The notes beneath the pieces are model-generated. The model searched no databases. It saw nothing but the letters and a program-made list of their open reading frames with translations, and was not told where the DNA came from. A stretch of 8,177 nt of DNA from NCBI GenBank assembly GCA_005239585.1, contig SBBU01000167.1:1-8177 (forward strand), read 5' to 3'. Positions 1 to 8,177 of this stretch are shown here, in pieces (positions within the stretch are counted from its first letter, which is position 1; each line of letters begins with the position of its first letter). Position numbers and translations under genes: made by a program. This DNA comes from Planctomycetaceae bacterium. GTDB lineage: Bacteria; Planctomycetota; MHYJ01; SBBU01.

Positions 1-290
1 GAAGTTACGGCGGTTACGGTGGATATGGTAGCAGATATGGAAGTTATGGCGGATACGGTGGATATGGCGGTGGATACGGCGGTTACGGTGGAGGATATGG
101 AGGATACGGCGGATATGGTGGTTATGGAGGATACCCATACGGTTATGGAAGTTACGGCTATTCAAACTATGGCAATTATTATAATCCGTATGGATACAAC
201 AACTACGGTTATAATTACGGATACAATAACTACACAAATAATACCCCTCCACCACCCCCGCCAAACATAGTTCCAGGGCCGACTAGATAA
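1..290 (+). CDS. Gly/Tyr-rich low-complexity protein, C-terminal part (5' end outside window)
   Basis: The frame starting at base 3 stays open for 95 residues to a TAA at 288-290. It begins before the window, so only the C-terminal end is seen. About the first 44 residues are near-perfect GGY and GSY repeats. The next 35 or so are Tyr/Asn-rich (NYGYNYGYNNY type), followed by six consecutive prolines and a short tail ending in GPTR. Codons for Gly and Tyr vary (ggc/ggt/gga, tat/tac), as expected for a repeat selected at protein level rather than a recent DNA duplication. Such sequence is intrinsically disordered and can be adhesive or phase-separating. It is found in surface proteins, RNA-binding proteins and tails of secreted proteins, and nothing here decides among these. 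No Cys is present and no folded domain is visible. The function is not recognised. Confidence 0.75.
   Translation, partial: SYGGYGGYGSRYGSYGGYGGYGGGYGGYGGGYGGYGGYGGYGGYPYGYGSYGYSNYGNYYNPYGYNNYGYNYGYNNYTNNTPPPPPPNIVPGPTR
3..134 (+). repeat. tandem GGY-coding low-complexity repeat
   Basis: Degenerate tandem units of 9 bp (gga-tac-ggc type) encode repeated Gly-Gly-Tyr, with a few Ser and one Arg substitution. The repeat lies in frame inside the Gly/Tyr-rich gene. Its regularity also keeps other frames open, which gives a spurious Met/Asp/Val/Thr-rich reading at 19-270. Confidence 0.8.
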
Positions 291-2679: not shown

Positions 2680-2683
2680 CCTT
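2680..2683 (-). promoter_or_regulatory. ribosome binding site overlapping the protease stop codon
   Basis: On the - strand AAGG lies within TAAGG, so the stop codon of the HtrA protease and the Shine-Dalgarno of the small membrane protein share bases. The spacing to the ATG is 7 nt. This arrangement supports coupled translation. Confidence 0.5.
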
Positions 2684-3971
2684 AATCCTGTGGGTGTTTG
2701 ACTAGAATAATGCTGGCGTCGTATTCTGTGTCGCCGCGCTTGAGGGTAAGTTTGACAGTGTCGCCCGGTTTTTTCTTCCAGAGCGCATCCAGAAACTCTT
2801 TGGCGTTGGCTGGTTTTTTGCCTTCGAATTTTAGGATAATATCTCCTTCCTGAATGCCTGCATCATCTGCAGGTGAGCCCGGGGTAAGTTTAGTTATCTT
2901 GACTCCTTCTTCAGCATCGTCAACTTGAATCCCCATGTATCCAGCGCCTTTGGGTCTGGGATCTATCGCTATCTCTGGCCTATCGAGCTTCACTTTGATC
3001 TTCAAAATCTCCTTTTCATCGCCCTCTTTCTTTCGCTCAACTGTTACCGTAATCTCATCATCCATTGGATATGTACCAACAACACTCCAATATCTGTAGG
3101 AGGATGTTATAGACTGATCATCTATCTTCAAGATGAGATCATCTGCCTTGAAGCCTGCCTTGGCCGCGGACGAACCCTCCTTTACCTCACGAATCTTTGC
3201 GCCTCTACCATCTGTATGATCTGATGAAATCAAAAGGCCGCCTATCTGTCCATGCAACACTTCACCGCCATCCCTGACCTGCATCATTGCCTTCATGAAT
3301 CTCTTTACCCTGTTAGATGGAATTGCATAACCAACGCCAGTAAAAATTCGCGCAGGAAATCTCGGTGCAATCCTGCCATTTATACCAACTACCTTACAGT
3401 CAAGAGTTATTAGCGGGCCACCTGAATTCCCGGGATTAAGCGCCGCATCTGTCTGGATACAGTCAAAATAAGTTCCTTGATATCTGTGTATTGCGCTTAC
3501 AATACCGACACTTATCGAGGGATACAACTTGCCATCAGGGCCCCCTACAGTCCCAAGTAAAAATGGATTCCCAATTGCTATGCAGTACTGACCCACCTCG
3601 AGTTTATTCGAGTCGCCGAGTTCCAGATAATCGAATTTCTTGTCAGACTCAATCTTGAAAAGCGTAAGATCGCCATAAGGATCAGTTGCAATTTTCTTGG
3701 CTGTGTATAATGAACCGTCAATCAGGTGGATCTTGATCGTTTTCTTACCTCCTGCAACGTGATGATTTGTAAAAAAGTAGCCATCCCCCGAAACTATTAC
3801 CCCAGACCCGCCTTCAACAAAAACATAGGCTTTTTGCGACTTGGCAGTGGCCTCTTTTATTATTGATTCTAACTTTTTTGCATCATCCTGAACCACAACA
3901 AGGAAAAGGAATGCAAGCACCCAACATTTATACTGTTTCCGGTTGCATCGTTCTAAAATCGTTTGCATCAT
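2682..3971 (-). CDS. secreted HtrA/DegP-like serine protease with two PDZ domains, triad intact
   Basis: This is a trypsin-fold S1C peptidase that would degrade or chaperone misfolded envelope proteins. With the ATG at 3971 it has 429 residues. It begins with a signal peptide or anchor (hydrophobic CWVLAFLFLVVVQ, about residues 16-28) and continues with a protease domain (about 40-235) and two PDZ domains (about 241-326 and 344-424). The triad is H71 (in FTNHHVAGG), D101 (in YGDLTLFKI) and S183 (in NPGNSGGPL), with the oxyanion-loop GNSGG intact. The start at 3971 is chosen over an in-frame ATG at 3998 because GAGGA lies 8 nt upstream and because 3998 would overlap the previous gene by 26 nt. 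From 3971 only one base separates it from the previous stop. PDZ domains normally bind C-termini of substrates or regulators. It is the only catalytically competent member of the three adjacent HtrA paralogues. The exact subfamily (DegP, DegS, DegQ) is not determinable. Confidence 0.92.
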   Translation of the reverse strand: MMQTILERCNRKQYKCWVLAFLFLVVVQDDAKKLESIIKEATAKSQKAYVFVEGGSGVIVSGDGYFFTNHHVAGGKKTIKIHLIDGSLYTAKKIATDPYGDLTLFKIESDKKFDYLELGDSNKLEVGQYCIAIGNPFLLGTVGGPDGKLYPSISVGIVSAIHRYQGTYFDCIQTDAALNPGNSGGPLITLDCKVVGINGRIAPRFPARIFTGVGYAIPSNRVKRFMKAMMQVRDGGEVLHGQIGGLLISSDHTDGRGAKIREVKEGSSAAKAGFKADDLILKIDDQSITSSYRYWSVVGTYPMDDEITVTVERKKEGDEKEILKIKVKLDRPEIAIDPRPKGAGYMGIQVDDAEEGVKITKLTPGSPADDAGIQEGDIILKFEGKKPANAKEFLDALWKKKPGDTVKLTLKRGDTEYDASIILVKHPQD

Positions 3972-3972
3972 A

Positions 3973-4989
3973 TTATTCGTCCTCAGGCGCCTCGCCAAGA
4001 ATCACTTTGAATTCGAGTTCCTGACCGTCCCTAATCACCTTGACAATCACAGGATCACCAGGCTGGAGCTTTATGACCATATTTTTCAGCTGTGAAAAGG
4101 TCTGCATCTCCTTGCCGTTAAACTCTATGATAATATCTCCTCCCTTTATACCGGCCTTTTTTGCCGCTCCGTCCTCAGACACATCTCTGACCTTTAATCC
4201 CTTGGGGACATCACCTTGCGTATCAATAAATACACCCAGCCGTGTCTGCTTTGATTTTTCTACCCTTTCGCCCTTTTTGAGCTTTTCAAAAATATCATCA
4301 ACTTTGTCATACGTTATCGCGAATCCGACCCCAGAACTCTGACCGTACATGCTATTAGTAGAAACCTTACAGATAATACCTATCAGTCGTCCCTCTGAAT
4401 CTACCAGCGGTCCACCAGCATTCCCGTAGTTTATCTTAGCATCAGTCTGCACAGCACGCCCGCTCGCTCTCTGCATTGCACTAAGAACTCCAGCATTGAT
4501 TGTAAGGCCATTGCATGCGCCCAATGCAAATACTGACTGCCCAAGCTCAAGTGATTTCAGATCGGCTCGTTTTAGCGCCTTGAGATCATCCTTATTCACC
4601 TTGATTAATGCAATGTCAAAAGTACCATTGAATCCCAAGAGTGCTCCCTCGATGTATTCATCGCTCCCGGGCAGCATAACCTCCACCTCATCATCCTTTG
4701 CACCCTTGACATTAAAGTAACTTGTGAGGATATAACCATCACTTGAGACAATCGTTCCTGTCACTGGAGTCTTTGGGCGCTTTTTAAAAGGTGAAAACAT
4801 GTCTGCGGGCTCATCTGGTTCCTTGTCACGCGTAATTTTTATGCTTACCACAGAAGAAGAGCACTTGGCCATAATGCCCTGGTAAAGTTTTTCCAGAGAG
4901 GTATTTAGCTTCTCCTGATCAGTCTGAGGCAGAGCGTCAATGCCACTTACAGAAATAGCGCTAATTAGAAATAGTACCCTTGTCAACAT
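3973..4989 (-). CDS. HtrA-like pseudoprotease with one PDZ domain (His to Phe, Ser to Ala)
   Basis: This 338-residue secreted protein is clearly homologous to the downstream protease: trypsin-like domain at about 40-235 and one PDZ domain at about 249-332. The hydrophobic N-terminus (MLTRVLFLISAISVSG) looks like a signal peptide. The catalytic His position is Phe (F92 in ILTSYFNVKG, where active relatives have T-N-x-H). The Asp is kept (D125 in GTFDIALIK). The nucleophile is Ala (A191 in NYGNAGGPL instead of NPGNSGGPL). It should therefore fold like HtrA but not cleave. The Ala codon is GCT, one base from a Ser codon. The start at 4989 is supported by AGGAG (4998-5002) 8 nt upstream. It overlaps the preceding pseudoprotease gene by 29 nt and ends one base before the active protease starts. 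A scaffold, substrate-binding or regulatory role in a complex with its paralogues is inferred. Confidence 0.9.
   Translation of the reverse strand: MLTRVLFLISAISVSGIDALPQTDQEKLNTSLEKLYQGIMAKCSSSVVSIKITRDKEPDEPADMFSPFKKRPKTPVTGTIVSSDGYILTSYFNVKGAKDDEVEVMLPGSDEYIEGALLGFNGTFDIALIKVNKDDLKALKRADLKSLELGQSVFALGACNGLTINAGVLSAMQRASGRAVQTDAKINYGNAGGPLVDSEGRLIGIICKVSTNSMYGQSSGVGFAITYDKVDDIFEKLKKGERVEKSKQTRLGVFIDTQGDVPKGLKVRDVSEDGAAKKAGIKGGDIIIEFNGKEMQTFSQLKNMVIKLQPGDPVIVKVIRDGQELEFKVILGEAPEDE
3980..3984 (-). promoter_or_regulatory. ribosome binding site deciding the protease start
   Basis: GAGGA on the - strand sits 8 nt before ATG 3971 and lies inside the end of the preceding gene. It is downstream of the alternative ATG 3998, so it can serve only the shorter start. 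Confidence 0.55.
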
Positions 4990-5863
4990 TTATATTGCTC
5001 CTAACTTTGTTTTCTCCATCTTCTCTTTCCACCTCTATGCTGAACTTTTTACCGGCTTTTGCCATCTCCTTGTCAAAAGTAGCAATCGATTTGATTTCAA
5101 CCTCTTCAATCTTTGTTATAAGATCTCCCTGCTTGAAACCTGCTTTTTCTGCGGGCGAATCCTTCTCCACATTTTTAACAGTAACCTTTTCCTTTGACTC
5201 GGCAAGTTCAAGACCATAGATAACCCTGCCAAGCGCCGGCTTGAAGAGATTAACAGGGATAGCCAGACCTGCATAGCGGGCATCGTGATAACTCAATGTC
5301 AGCATCCCGACGAGCTTACCCTTTGAATCTAGGAGCGCACCCCCATCCTGATTTGGATTAACAGATGCACTTGTCTCAAAAACAGTTCCCTTGTAAGTTC
5401 CACCCTTTGGTTCATCGATCTTGTATACCCCGCTAATCACTCCGACAGAAAAGGCTACCTGATCATCAGTAAAGATAGAATAATTACTATCTCCAAGCGT
5501 GTAAGCGACTTGACCCACTTTGACTTGATCTGAATCTCCAATCTCAATATGCGTTGTGATTTTATCTTTTGGAATTCTTACAACTACCAGCTCCAACTTT
5601 TTATCGAAATATATCACTCGACCAGTTACTTTTTTATGACCGGTGAGGATTACCTCAATTTTCTCATCTTTCTTCGTACCAGTGGCAGTTGTAGAAGTCA
5701 GAATCACTCCATCTGACGAGACGATTACCCCTGTTCCTATCTGGCCTGAACCTTTTACCCCAACTACTGCAGGGGATATCTTTTTATAAAGTTTTATATG
5801 TGTCTTTGTAATTTCGTCTTGTGCTTGTACCAGAAAAAGGCTTGCCAGCAATAATATCTTCAT
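4961..5863 (-). CDS. HtrA-like pseudoprotease with one PDZ domain (all three triad residues lost)
   Basis: This 300-residue secreted protein has a short signal peptide (hydrophobic KILLLASLFLVQA, likely cut before QDE), a trypsin-like domain at about 25-210 and one PDZ domain at about 214-290. Alignment by eye to the active paralogue gives Thr for the catalytic His (T59 in ILTSTTATG), Glu for Asp (E91 in KKLELVVVRI) and Asp for Ser (D173 in NPNQDGGAL). The surrounding structural motifs (GTGVIVSSDG, SVGVISG, the SPAEKAGF-x-QGDLI PDZ motif) are well kept. This points to selection on fold rather than decay. The start is firm because an in-frame TAG immediately precedes the ATG. There is no clear Shine-Dalgarno. 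The gene follows thyX after 32 nt and overlaps the next pseudoprotease gene by 29 nt. It is the most diverged of the three paralogues. A non-catalytic partner role is inferred. Confidence 0.88.
   Translation of the reverse strand: MKILLLASLFLVQAQDEITKTHIKLYKKISPAVVGVKGSGQIGTGVIVSSDGVILTSTTATGTKKDEKIEVILTGHKKVTGRVIYFDKKLELVVVRIPKDKITTHIEIGDSDQVKVGQVAYTLGDSNYSIFTDDQVAFSVGVISGVYKIDEPKGGTYKGTVFETSASVNPNQDGGALLDSKGKLVGMLTLSYHDARYAGLAIPVNLFKPALGRVIYGLELAESKEKVTVKNVEKDSPAEKAGFKQGDLITKIEEVEIKSIATFDKEMAKAGKKFSIEVEREDGENKVRSNINVDKGTISN
4998..5002 (-). promoter_or_regulatory. ribosome binding site of the second pseudoprotease gene
   Basis: AGGAG on the - strand, 8 nt before ATG 4989, lies inside the coding end of the preceding pseudoprotease gene. 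The two genes overlap by 29 nt, so ribosomes finishing one gene pass over this site. Confidence 0.55.
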
Positions 5864-7616: not shown

Positions 7617-7640
7617 TATCGAAATCTCTTGAAAATTTAT

Positions 7641-8177
7641 ATGAATGTACGAAGTAGCGCTACTCTTGTGATATTTCTTGTGGTGGTAGTATCAACCTTC
7701 AGTTGTGGACCATACATCCGCCCCGAGCTGCAAAAAGAGATCGATGATACGATCAAAAAATATGGTTCAGCCTCCAGAAAAGTAGTATACGACAATGCCG
7801 ACAATGTTAAGATAAAGCCATGGAGGGTGGGACAATGGGTACTGCTCAAGAGTATTGATAGAGATAACAATGTCTCACTAGTTAAGGTCAGCATCACAAA
7901 ACAACAAGGGACTGCTTTCGTGATTGAAACATCTTCCAGCACCTATTTTGGCAAGTCTGACACAGCTTTGTTTATAGACGGTTTTAACCATACGGATGTC
8001 ACAAAAATGAAGATCCTCAAGGCAAAGTTTCGAAACCAACAAGGTAAGATCACCGAAGTCCCGGAAGAACAGCTAAACGAGTACAATATCAGCGATACTT
8101 TCCTTCAAATAATTAAACAATCAAACAAGGCAGGCCAAAAGGATACAGTGAACATAAATAACCTGGTGTTCAAAGAC
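7641..8177 (+). CDS. putative secreted lipoprotein, 3' end outside window
   Basis: The frame is open for all 179 codons from ATG 7641 to the end of the window, so the protein is incomplete. The first roughly 21 residues form a signal peptide with Arg at position 4 and a long hydrophobic core (ATLVIFLVVVVSTFS). A Cys follows at residue 22 (FSCGPY), fitting a lipoprotein, although Thr at -3 and Phe at -2 are not the classical lipobox. The mature part is hydrophilic, with an early helix-like segment (ELQKEIDDTIKKYG) and a WRVGQWVLLKSI motif near residues 60-71 that suggests a beta-rich domain. I do not recognise the family. The start is supported by the signal peptide and a well-placed promoter; there is no clear Shine-Dalgarno. 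It diverges from thyX and may share regulation with it. Confidence 0.75.
   Translation, partial: MNVRSSATLVIFLVVVVSTFSCGPYIRPELQKEIDDTIKKYGSASRKVVYDNADNVKIKPWRVGQWVLLKSIDRDNNVSLVKVSITKQQGTAFVIETSSSTYFGKSDTALFIDGFNHTDVTKMKILKAKFRNQQGKITEVPEEQLNEYNISDTFLQIIKQSNKAGQKDTVNINNLVFKD

Follow-up and report, generated by a model that had tools for sequence, protein, structure and literature searches.

The 8,177-nucleotide contig SBBU01000167.1 of a Planctomycetaceae bacterium (assembly GCA_005239585.1), hereafter the window, carries three adjacent, tightly coupled genes, HtrA-a, HtrA-b and HtrA-c, that encode proteins of the HtrA protease family, only the last of which has a complete catalytic triad. 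Sets of two dead and one live HtrA recur in other planctomycete genomes, the dead members form conserved families of their own and are often naturally fused to one another, and two residues that belong to the activation cluster of DegP are kept together in all 34 domains of dead b compared and are frequently lost from live c. These features point to a, b and c being subunits of a single exported, asymmetric a:b:c HtrA heterotrimer in which b would switch on c, a reading to which we give a probability of about two in three.

Two dead HtrA lineages and a live one

Three minus-strand frames lie next to one another at the positions of the original prediction (Table 1), and the ATG of c is one base past the stop codon of b. 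All three products pass the Pfam cut-offs for Trypsin_2 (PF13365) and for PDZ, c with two PDZ stretches, which bears out the description of the genes as three trypsin-fold plus PDZ genes, and the signal-like N termini suggest that all three proteins are exported. His-Asp-Ser, the triad expected of the HtrA/Do family, is found in c only, at H71/D101/S183 when numbered from the ATG, exactly as first read (H80/D110/S192 from an alternative TTG start, which gives a frame of 438 amino acids at 3998-2682). The original prediction also had the other two proteins lose their catalytic residues. This holds entirely for a, in which Thr, Glu and Asp occupy the three places, and in part for b, which has Phe, Asp and Ala and has therefore lost His and Ser but kept Asp. 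The NCBIfam model of the Do family (TIGR02037) scores a, b and c at 110.9, 189.4 and 276.5 bits, all under its cut-off of 416.2; judged by its sequence, c is clearly a homologue of the HtrAs, though a diverged one.

The three-gene arrangement was scored in 60 neighbourhoods, 59 of them taken mostly from the top a-like matches in 392 planctomycete genomes and one from another search, a set that is biased towards dead a by the choice of loci. Two dead domains followed by a live one, in that order, were found in 38 of the 60 (22 of the plain type, 11 in which a is fused to b, four close to the end of a contig, and L098 with its additional live domain). The rest comprise one live-dead-dead locus, one dead-dead-cut locus, seven loci with two dead members only (four of these near a contig end), four with one dead and one live member, five with one dead member only and four single live HtrAs. 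A fairer sample consisted of 17 genomes of the phylum and 14 of the class (29 distinct), searched with Trypsin_2 and chosen without regard to the trio, except for the centre genome G003, which was picked because it has trios. Tandem S1C triplets occur in at least 13 of these 29 Planctomycetota genomes (at least 12 of 28 without G003), with 17 triplets among the matches listed. All 17, when read with an S1C model of our own, have two dead members and one His-Asp-Ser member, where the live member in G015 is cut by a contig end before its Ser and the His place of b in G008 was unaligned and was read by eye as Trp. The order is dead-dead-live in 14 of the 17 and live-dead-dead in three (one in G013 and two in G020), and re-scanning G016 revealed a further trio (L146). 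The three-gene order is thus conserved outside the genome of the window, where its absence would have counted against the original prediction, and its recurrence in other genomes indicates more than chance.

A quick IQ-TREE phylogeny of 185 S1C domains, with Shimodaira-Hasegawa-like approximate likelihood ratio test (SH-aLRT) support, no bootstrap and several long rows, separates three clades into which a, b and c of the window respectively fall. The A clade (SH-aLRT 89) holds 21 of 21 a domains, 13 of 13 a domains of fusions and five dead domains of other trios, and the B clade (SH-aLRT 98) holds 21 of 21 b domains, 13 of 13 b domains of fusions and 11 more dead domains. The C clade (SH-aLRT 80) contains 21 of 22 c domains, all 12 c domains of fusion loci, all ten live domains from the other trios and a single row with the label ordinary; the remaining c row, the 22nd, is in fact an ordinary HtrA, lying near L087, that the labelling had picked up. 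The grouping of each of the three lineages gives the trio the look of an ancient set that has been passed on whole, with a rearranged order in some cases. Live-first trios were seen at L107, L129, L130, L135 and L136, and their dead members lie partly in the B clade.

Over 31 loci, the identity matrices for a, b and c correlate with one another (r of 0.55, 0.59 and 0.46, against highest values of 0.22, 0.26 and 0.23 in 999 permutations). We rejected this co-divergence as proof of partnership, because species history alone is able to give such a correlation. A better control is offered by the genomes with two trios (G002, G003 and G194), where each set stays together as a unit whichever of a, b and c is compared, with mean identities of 0.52-0.72 within sets and 0.37-0.55 between them.

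The dead sites are themselves conserved. A protein search with a returned 28 close relatives at 180 bits or more besides a itself, the next match scoring 108 bits (best 120 of 1346 matches). Alignment of these 29 proteins (P0001-P0029) shows T at the His place in 25, S in two and A in two, E at the Asp place in 27, with one D and one G, and D at the Ser place in 26, with N in three. The 23 best matches of b all have Phe at the His place and retain the Asp, while their Ser place is V in 15, A in six, T in one and S in one. Among relatives in which b is a separate gene, 5 of 21 b domains also retain the Ser, so that it is primarily the loss of His that makes b dead. Named members of these families come mostly from planctomycete metagenome-assembled genomes (MAGs).

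Activation residues and natural fusions

In DegS and DegP, according to the passages of PMC11642142 drawn on here, the Arg-bearing L3 loop of one subunit touches the LD loop of its neighbour, and the activation cluster of DegP consists of Thr176, Ser183, Arg187 and Gln200. The places of these residues were mapped through the alignment of c with DegP. The Arg187 and Gln200 places are both retained in 34 of 34 b domains and 34 of 37 ordinary HtrAs, but in 19 of 33 live c domains (singly, Arg in 24 and Gln in 25). The b-type domains of the protein sets have Arg in 23/23 and 52/52 and Gln in 22/23 and 52/52. In a, the Gln200 place is Glu without exception (21/21, 13/13, 29/29 and 52/52), and the Arg187 place drifts. 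On the tree, these losses amount to six changes (Arg) and five (Gln) in c, none in b and one each in ordinary HtrAs. As a control for overall conservation, c is the best conserved lineage and b the least (mean top-residue frequency 0.66 for c, 0.54 for a and 0.52 for b), yet the Arg and Gln columns are at the top of the ranking in b and at about place 70 in c. Comparing c with ordinary HtrAs, a Fisher test gives p = 0.0017, a value that ignores kinship and includes one ordinary row among c. The window's own c retains both Arg and Gln.

A c homotrimer would need its own Arg and Gln, but c can lose both and dead b never does, which suggests that b stands beside c as a relay. Such a partition of residues between b and c is what would be expected if the three proteins formed an obligate heterotrimer with b triggering c.

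Natural fusions join the same domains. Searching with the a-b fusion of L096 retrieved many two-domain proteins, and all 52 of those scored join an a-type with a b-type domain. Their first domain has T (49) or S (3) at the His place and E and D at the other two in 52/52; their second keeps the Asp in 52/52 and lacks the full triad throughout. One of these fusions comes from Candidatus Uabimicrobium amorphum and one from a Verrucomicrobiae MAG, and the 9,503,417-base contig carrying the Candidatus Uabimicrobium amorphum protein P0293 also has an a-b fusion next to a live gene. At L131, a b-type domain is joined with a live one. Three further arrangements were seen and not used as support: at L126, an a-type and a live domain share one frame, with no b seen on the 3.6-kb contig; at L108, b lies in a different frame within a long frame that joins a and c, which may be a sequencing artefact; and L098 holds four S1C domains, of which two are live.

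The L096 search also retrieved 13 chains of 952-1002 amino acids with three S1C domains. The third domain has His-Asp-Ser in 13/13 and the first two are dead in 13/13 (mostly H-G-D and H-N-G). These chains are full length in 3 of the 392 genomes, the copy in G274 being split over contig ends. Membership of their domains in the A, B and C clades was considered and is not supported; they lie outside, on a branch that places them with ordinary HtrAs with a support of 41 in the quick tree. As the domains fall outside the three clades, the dead-dead-live design may have arisen twice.

AlphaFold2 modelled a natural a-b fusion with a predicted local distance difference test score (pLDDT) of 92.3 and a predicted template modelling score (pTM) of 0.87 (56 sequences), and a three-domain chain with a pLDDT of 84.4 and a pTM of 0.76 (13 sequences). 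The pTM values suggest that the domains hold fixed positions relative to one another. In fold searches, the three-domain model matched known HtrA chains mainly over the live domain, and these searches did not discriminate the packing of the domains. Of the two assemblies first proposed from the window, a heterotrimer and a mixed cage, it is the heterotrimer with a dead regulatory subunit that finds partial support, in the natural fusions and in the split of the cluster residues between b and c.

The putative heterotrimer and competing explanations

In the proposed mechanism, an a:b:c heterotrimer would replace the usual homotrimer and c alone would cut. Dead b would keep the cluster residues that act on the LD loop of its neighbour and so provide the trigger that turns c on, probably when the PDZ domain of b binds the tail of a substrate. 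Dead a appears to have exchanged the cluster residues for invariant ones of its own (Glu at the Gln200 place and Thr-Glu-Asp in the old active site); because the set nearly always has two dead members and one live one, the third seat of the trimer would be a's, where it probably holds substrate or acts as a cap. With a single cut site in each trimer, substrates would more likely be clipped in a controlled way than shredded. The broader proposition, that Planctomycetota have both an obligate asymmetric HtrA heterotrimer (c cutting, b relaying and a in the third seat) and a single-chain pseudo-trimer (HGD-HNG-HDS), possibly of independent origin, is more tentative, and we put it at a little under even odds.

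Several observations weigh against the heterotrimer. The cluster counts rest on related sequences, and in the three-domain chains the Arg place does not follow the pattern of b and c: the live third domain is mostly without both residues, and the second keeps Gln in 5/5 and Arg in 2/5 of those scored. Among the matches listed, 16 of the 29 sampled genomes have no triplet. L101 and L118, neither of them close to the end of a contig, have two dead domains with no live gene in reach, and in G088 (L139) two live S1C genes and a dead one stretch over some 5 kb, slightly beyond the limit of the spacing rule. The packing of the domains in the fusion models may or may not be that of an HtrA trimer. 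Finally, the fused dead domain of plant Deg7 can form homotrimers, and by analogy an assembly of (a-b)3 plus c3 is possible.

The last point belongs to the best of the rival explanations, in which each protein forms its own homotrimer and the dead paralogues are exported chaperones or holdases that pass unfolded proteins to c or to other proteases. HtrAs are homotrimeric as a rule, the dead members retain their PDZ domains, and a degenerate domain mediates the homotrimer of Deg7 in the account given in the cited parts of PMC4754418. Separate homotrimers nevertheless sit poorly with a ratio of one live to two dead members in 17/17 sampled triplets, with the frequency of a-b fusions and the presence of dead-dead-live single chains, and with the loss of the Arg/Gln pair from 14 of 33 c domains, a pair presumably required in a homotrimer of c. 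We consider this explanation unlikely.

Alternatively, a dead-dead dimer or fusion might act from outside on a homotrimer of c, as its activator or anchor, without sharing a trimer interface with it. The invariance in b of residues that relay within a trimer, which would be of no obvious use to an external activator, makes this still less probable, even though the dead trypsin-like protein MamO is required for MamE-dependent proteolysis (PMC4794232, in the passages cited) and pairs of a live HtrA with one dead one do occur in planctomycetes. Four such one-live-one-dead S1C pairs were seen in other planctomycete genomes (L132, L133, L141 and L142), and these do not necessarily belong to the trio.

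The ratio of non-synonymous to synonymous substitutions (dN/dS) was estimated by the Nei-Gojobori method in two groups of related loci, and so concerns the genes of relatives and not those of the window itself. It ranged from 0.11 to 0.51 for a (16 pairs), 0.14 to 0.35 for b (13 pairs) and 0.14 to 0.64 for c (13 pairs). L087/L090, the least saturated informative pair, gave 0.112, 0.194 and 0.144 for a, b and c, and the closest pair, L091/L102 (dS <0.1), gave a higher value for a (0.397) than for c (0.190). Values near 1 in the dead members, which the original prediction had named as grounds for its own refutation, were not seen. That a and b are decaying duplicates retained by chance is accordingly most improbable: tandem duplicates often decay, and a and b are less conserved overall (0.54 and 0.52) than c (0.66), but the A and B clades are deep, dN/dS is below 1 in every pair and the pseudo-active site is fixed as T/S-E-D in 52/52 first domains of fusions.

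Known systems, significance and neighbouring genes

Dead partners of HtrA proteases are already known. In magnetotactic bacteria, MamE and MamO likewise pair a live HtrA-type protease with a triad-less relative needed for its proteolysis; unlike the trio, this system has one dead partner, and MamO is a metal-binding protein with a TauE-like transporter domain (PMC4794232). A dead-live fusion, as seen among relatives of the trio, is not mentioned in the passages of PMC4794232 used here. The window proteins score 48-173 bits against the NCBIfam models of MamE and MamO (48-49 bits for MamO), far from the cut-off of 800, and Pfam finds no match to a TauE-like domain in a, b or c, which sets them apart from MamO. 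Plant Deg7 resembles the trio in combining an active and a degenerate HtrA domain, the latter serving trimerisation (PMC4754418, PMC3473262, in the parts cited). It differs in having two protease domains in one chain, the live one first, and in forming a homotrimer; the trio has two dead members and one live one in mostly separate genes, as in the window, and its fused relatives are dead-dead or dead-dead-live. Plant Deg5 and Deg8 are two HtrA paralogues in one hetero-oligomer, of which only recombinant Deg8 was active, but this is described in the cited portion of PMC4754418 as a 1:1 heterohexamer of two kinds of subunit. Deg5 is among the 14 Arabidopsis Degs listed as keeping the triad in the part of PMC3473262 consulted, and so it is not dead by sequence. 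DegP aligns with c over the protease and both PDZ domains (166.6 bits), and DegP/DegQ-like chains are the best matches of the a and b profiles; DegP, DegQ and DegS, however, are homo-oligomers of live subunits, whereas the trio has its triad and its relay residues in different genes.

The original statement that no standard system is known with one live and two dead HtrA genes in tandem therefore holds with a qualification: MamO, Deg7 and Deg5/Deg8 supply precedents for dead partners, and the conserved set of two dead and one live HtrA appears to be new, having been found in no open-access paper searched. The open-access literature yielded no planctomycete paper on such a set, which does not by itself prove novelty.

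HtrA trimers are textbook allosteric proteases, in which the likeness of the subunits obscures which of them signals to which, and in the proteasome and Clp systems pseudoproteases are fixed regulatory subunits. If the proposed heterotrimer is correct, it would be a naturally occurring HtrA that has a single cut site and passes its allosteric signal in one set direction, and, as one cutter would be combined with two dead subunits that keep different residues, that direction would be directly testable. It would also give a conserved bacterial group in which pseudoproteases are fixed regulatory subunits of an ATP-independent protease.

Table 1. Positions in the window of the three HtrA genes and of the residues discussed in the text.
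Feature	Positions	Strand	Description
HtrA-a	4961..5863	-	300 amino acids; signal-like N terminus, dead S1C, one PDZ; T-E-D at the triad places
HtrA-b	3973..4989	-	338 amino acids; signal-like N terminus, dead S1C, one PDZ; F-D-A at the triad places
HtrA-c	2682..3971	-	429 amino acids from ATG; hydrophobic N-terminal stretch, live S1C, two PDZ
a/b overlap	4961..4989	-	29 bases; AGGAG followed by the ATG of b; translational coupling
Glu163 of a	5375..5377	-	DegP Gln200 place; invariant Glu in family a
Arg174 of b	4468..4470	-	DegP Arg187 place (activation cluster); invariant in family b
Gln181 of b	4447..4449	-	DegP Gln200 place (activation cluster); family b alignment
Catalytic His71 of c	3759..3761	-	numbered from ATG
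Catalytic Asp101 of c	3669..3671	-	numbered from ATG
Catalytic Ser183 of c	3423..3425	-	numbered from ATG

The order of transcription is a ThyX-like gene (7458-5896), HtrA-a, HtrA-b, HtrA-c and a gene for a 145-amino-acid protein (2672-2235). The ThyX-like protein, encoded directly upstream of the trio, is 520 amino acids long, roughly double the length of the ThyX model, and contains two Thy1 stretches; the 145-amino-acid protein, directly after HtrA-c, includes a hydrophobic stretch and matches nothing in Pfam or NCBIfam. Neither is a conserved partner: when genes were called naively in 32 loci, none of the flanking protein families was shared by more than 6 of them, which were close kin, and the trio therefore looks self-contained. 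Elsewhere in the window, a Gly/Tyr-rich frame with GGYGGYGG-like repeats (3-290, plus strand) and a lipoprotein-like frame with a Cys after a hydrophobic start (7629-8177, plus strand) are both cut by the window edge. A complete IS1634-family element spans 395-2014, with perfect 13-base inverted repeats at its ends (395-407 and 2002-2014) and a transposase at 503-1999 on the plus strand that scores 343.8 bits against a cut-off of 100.

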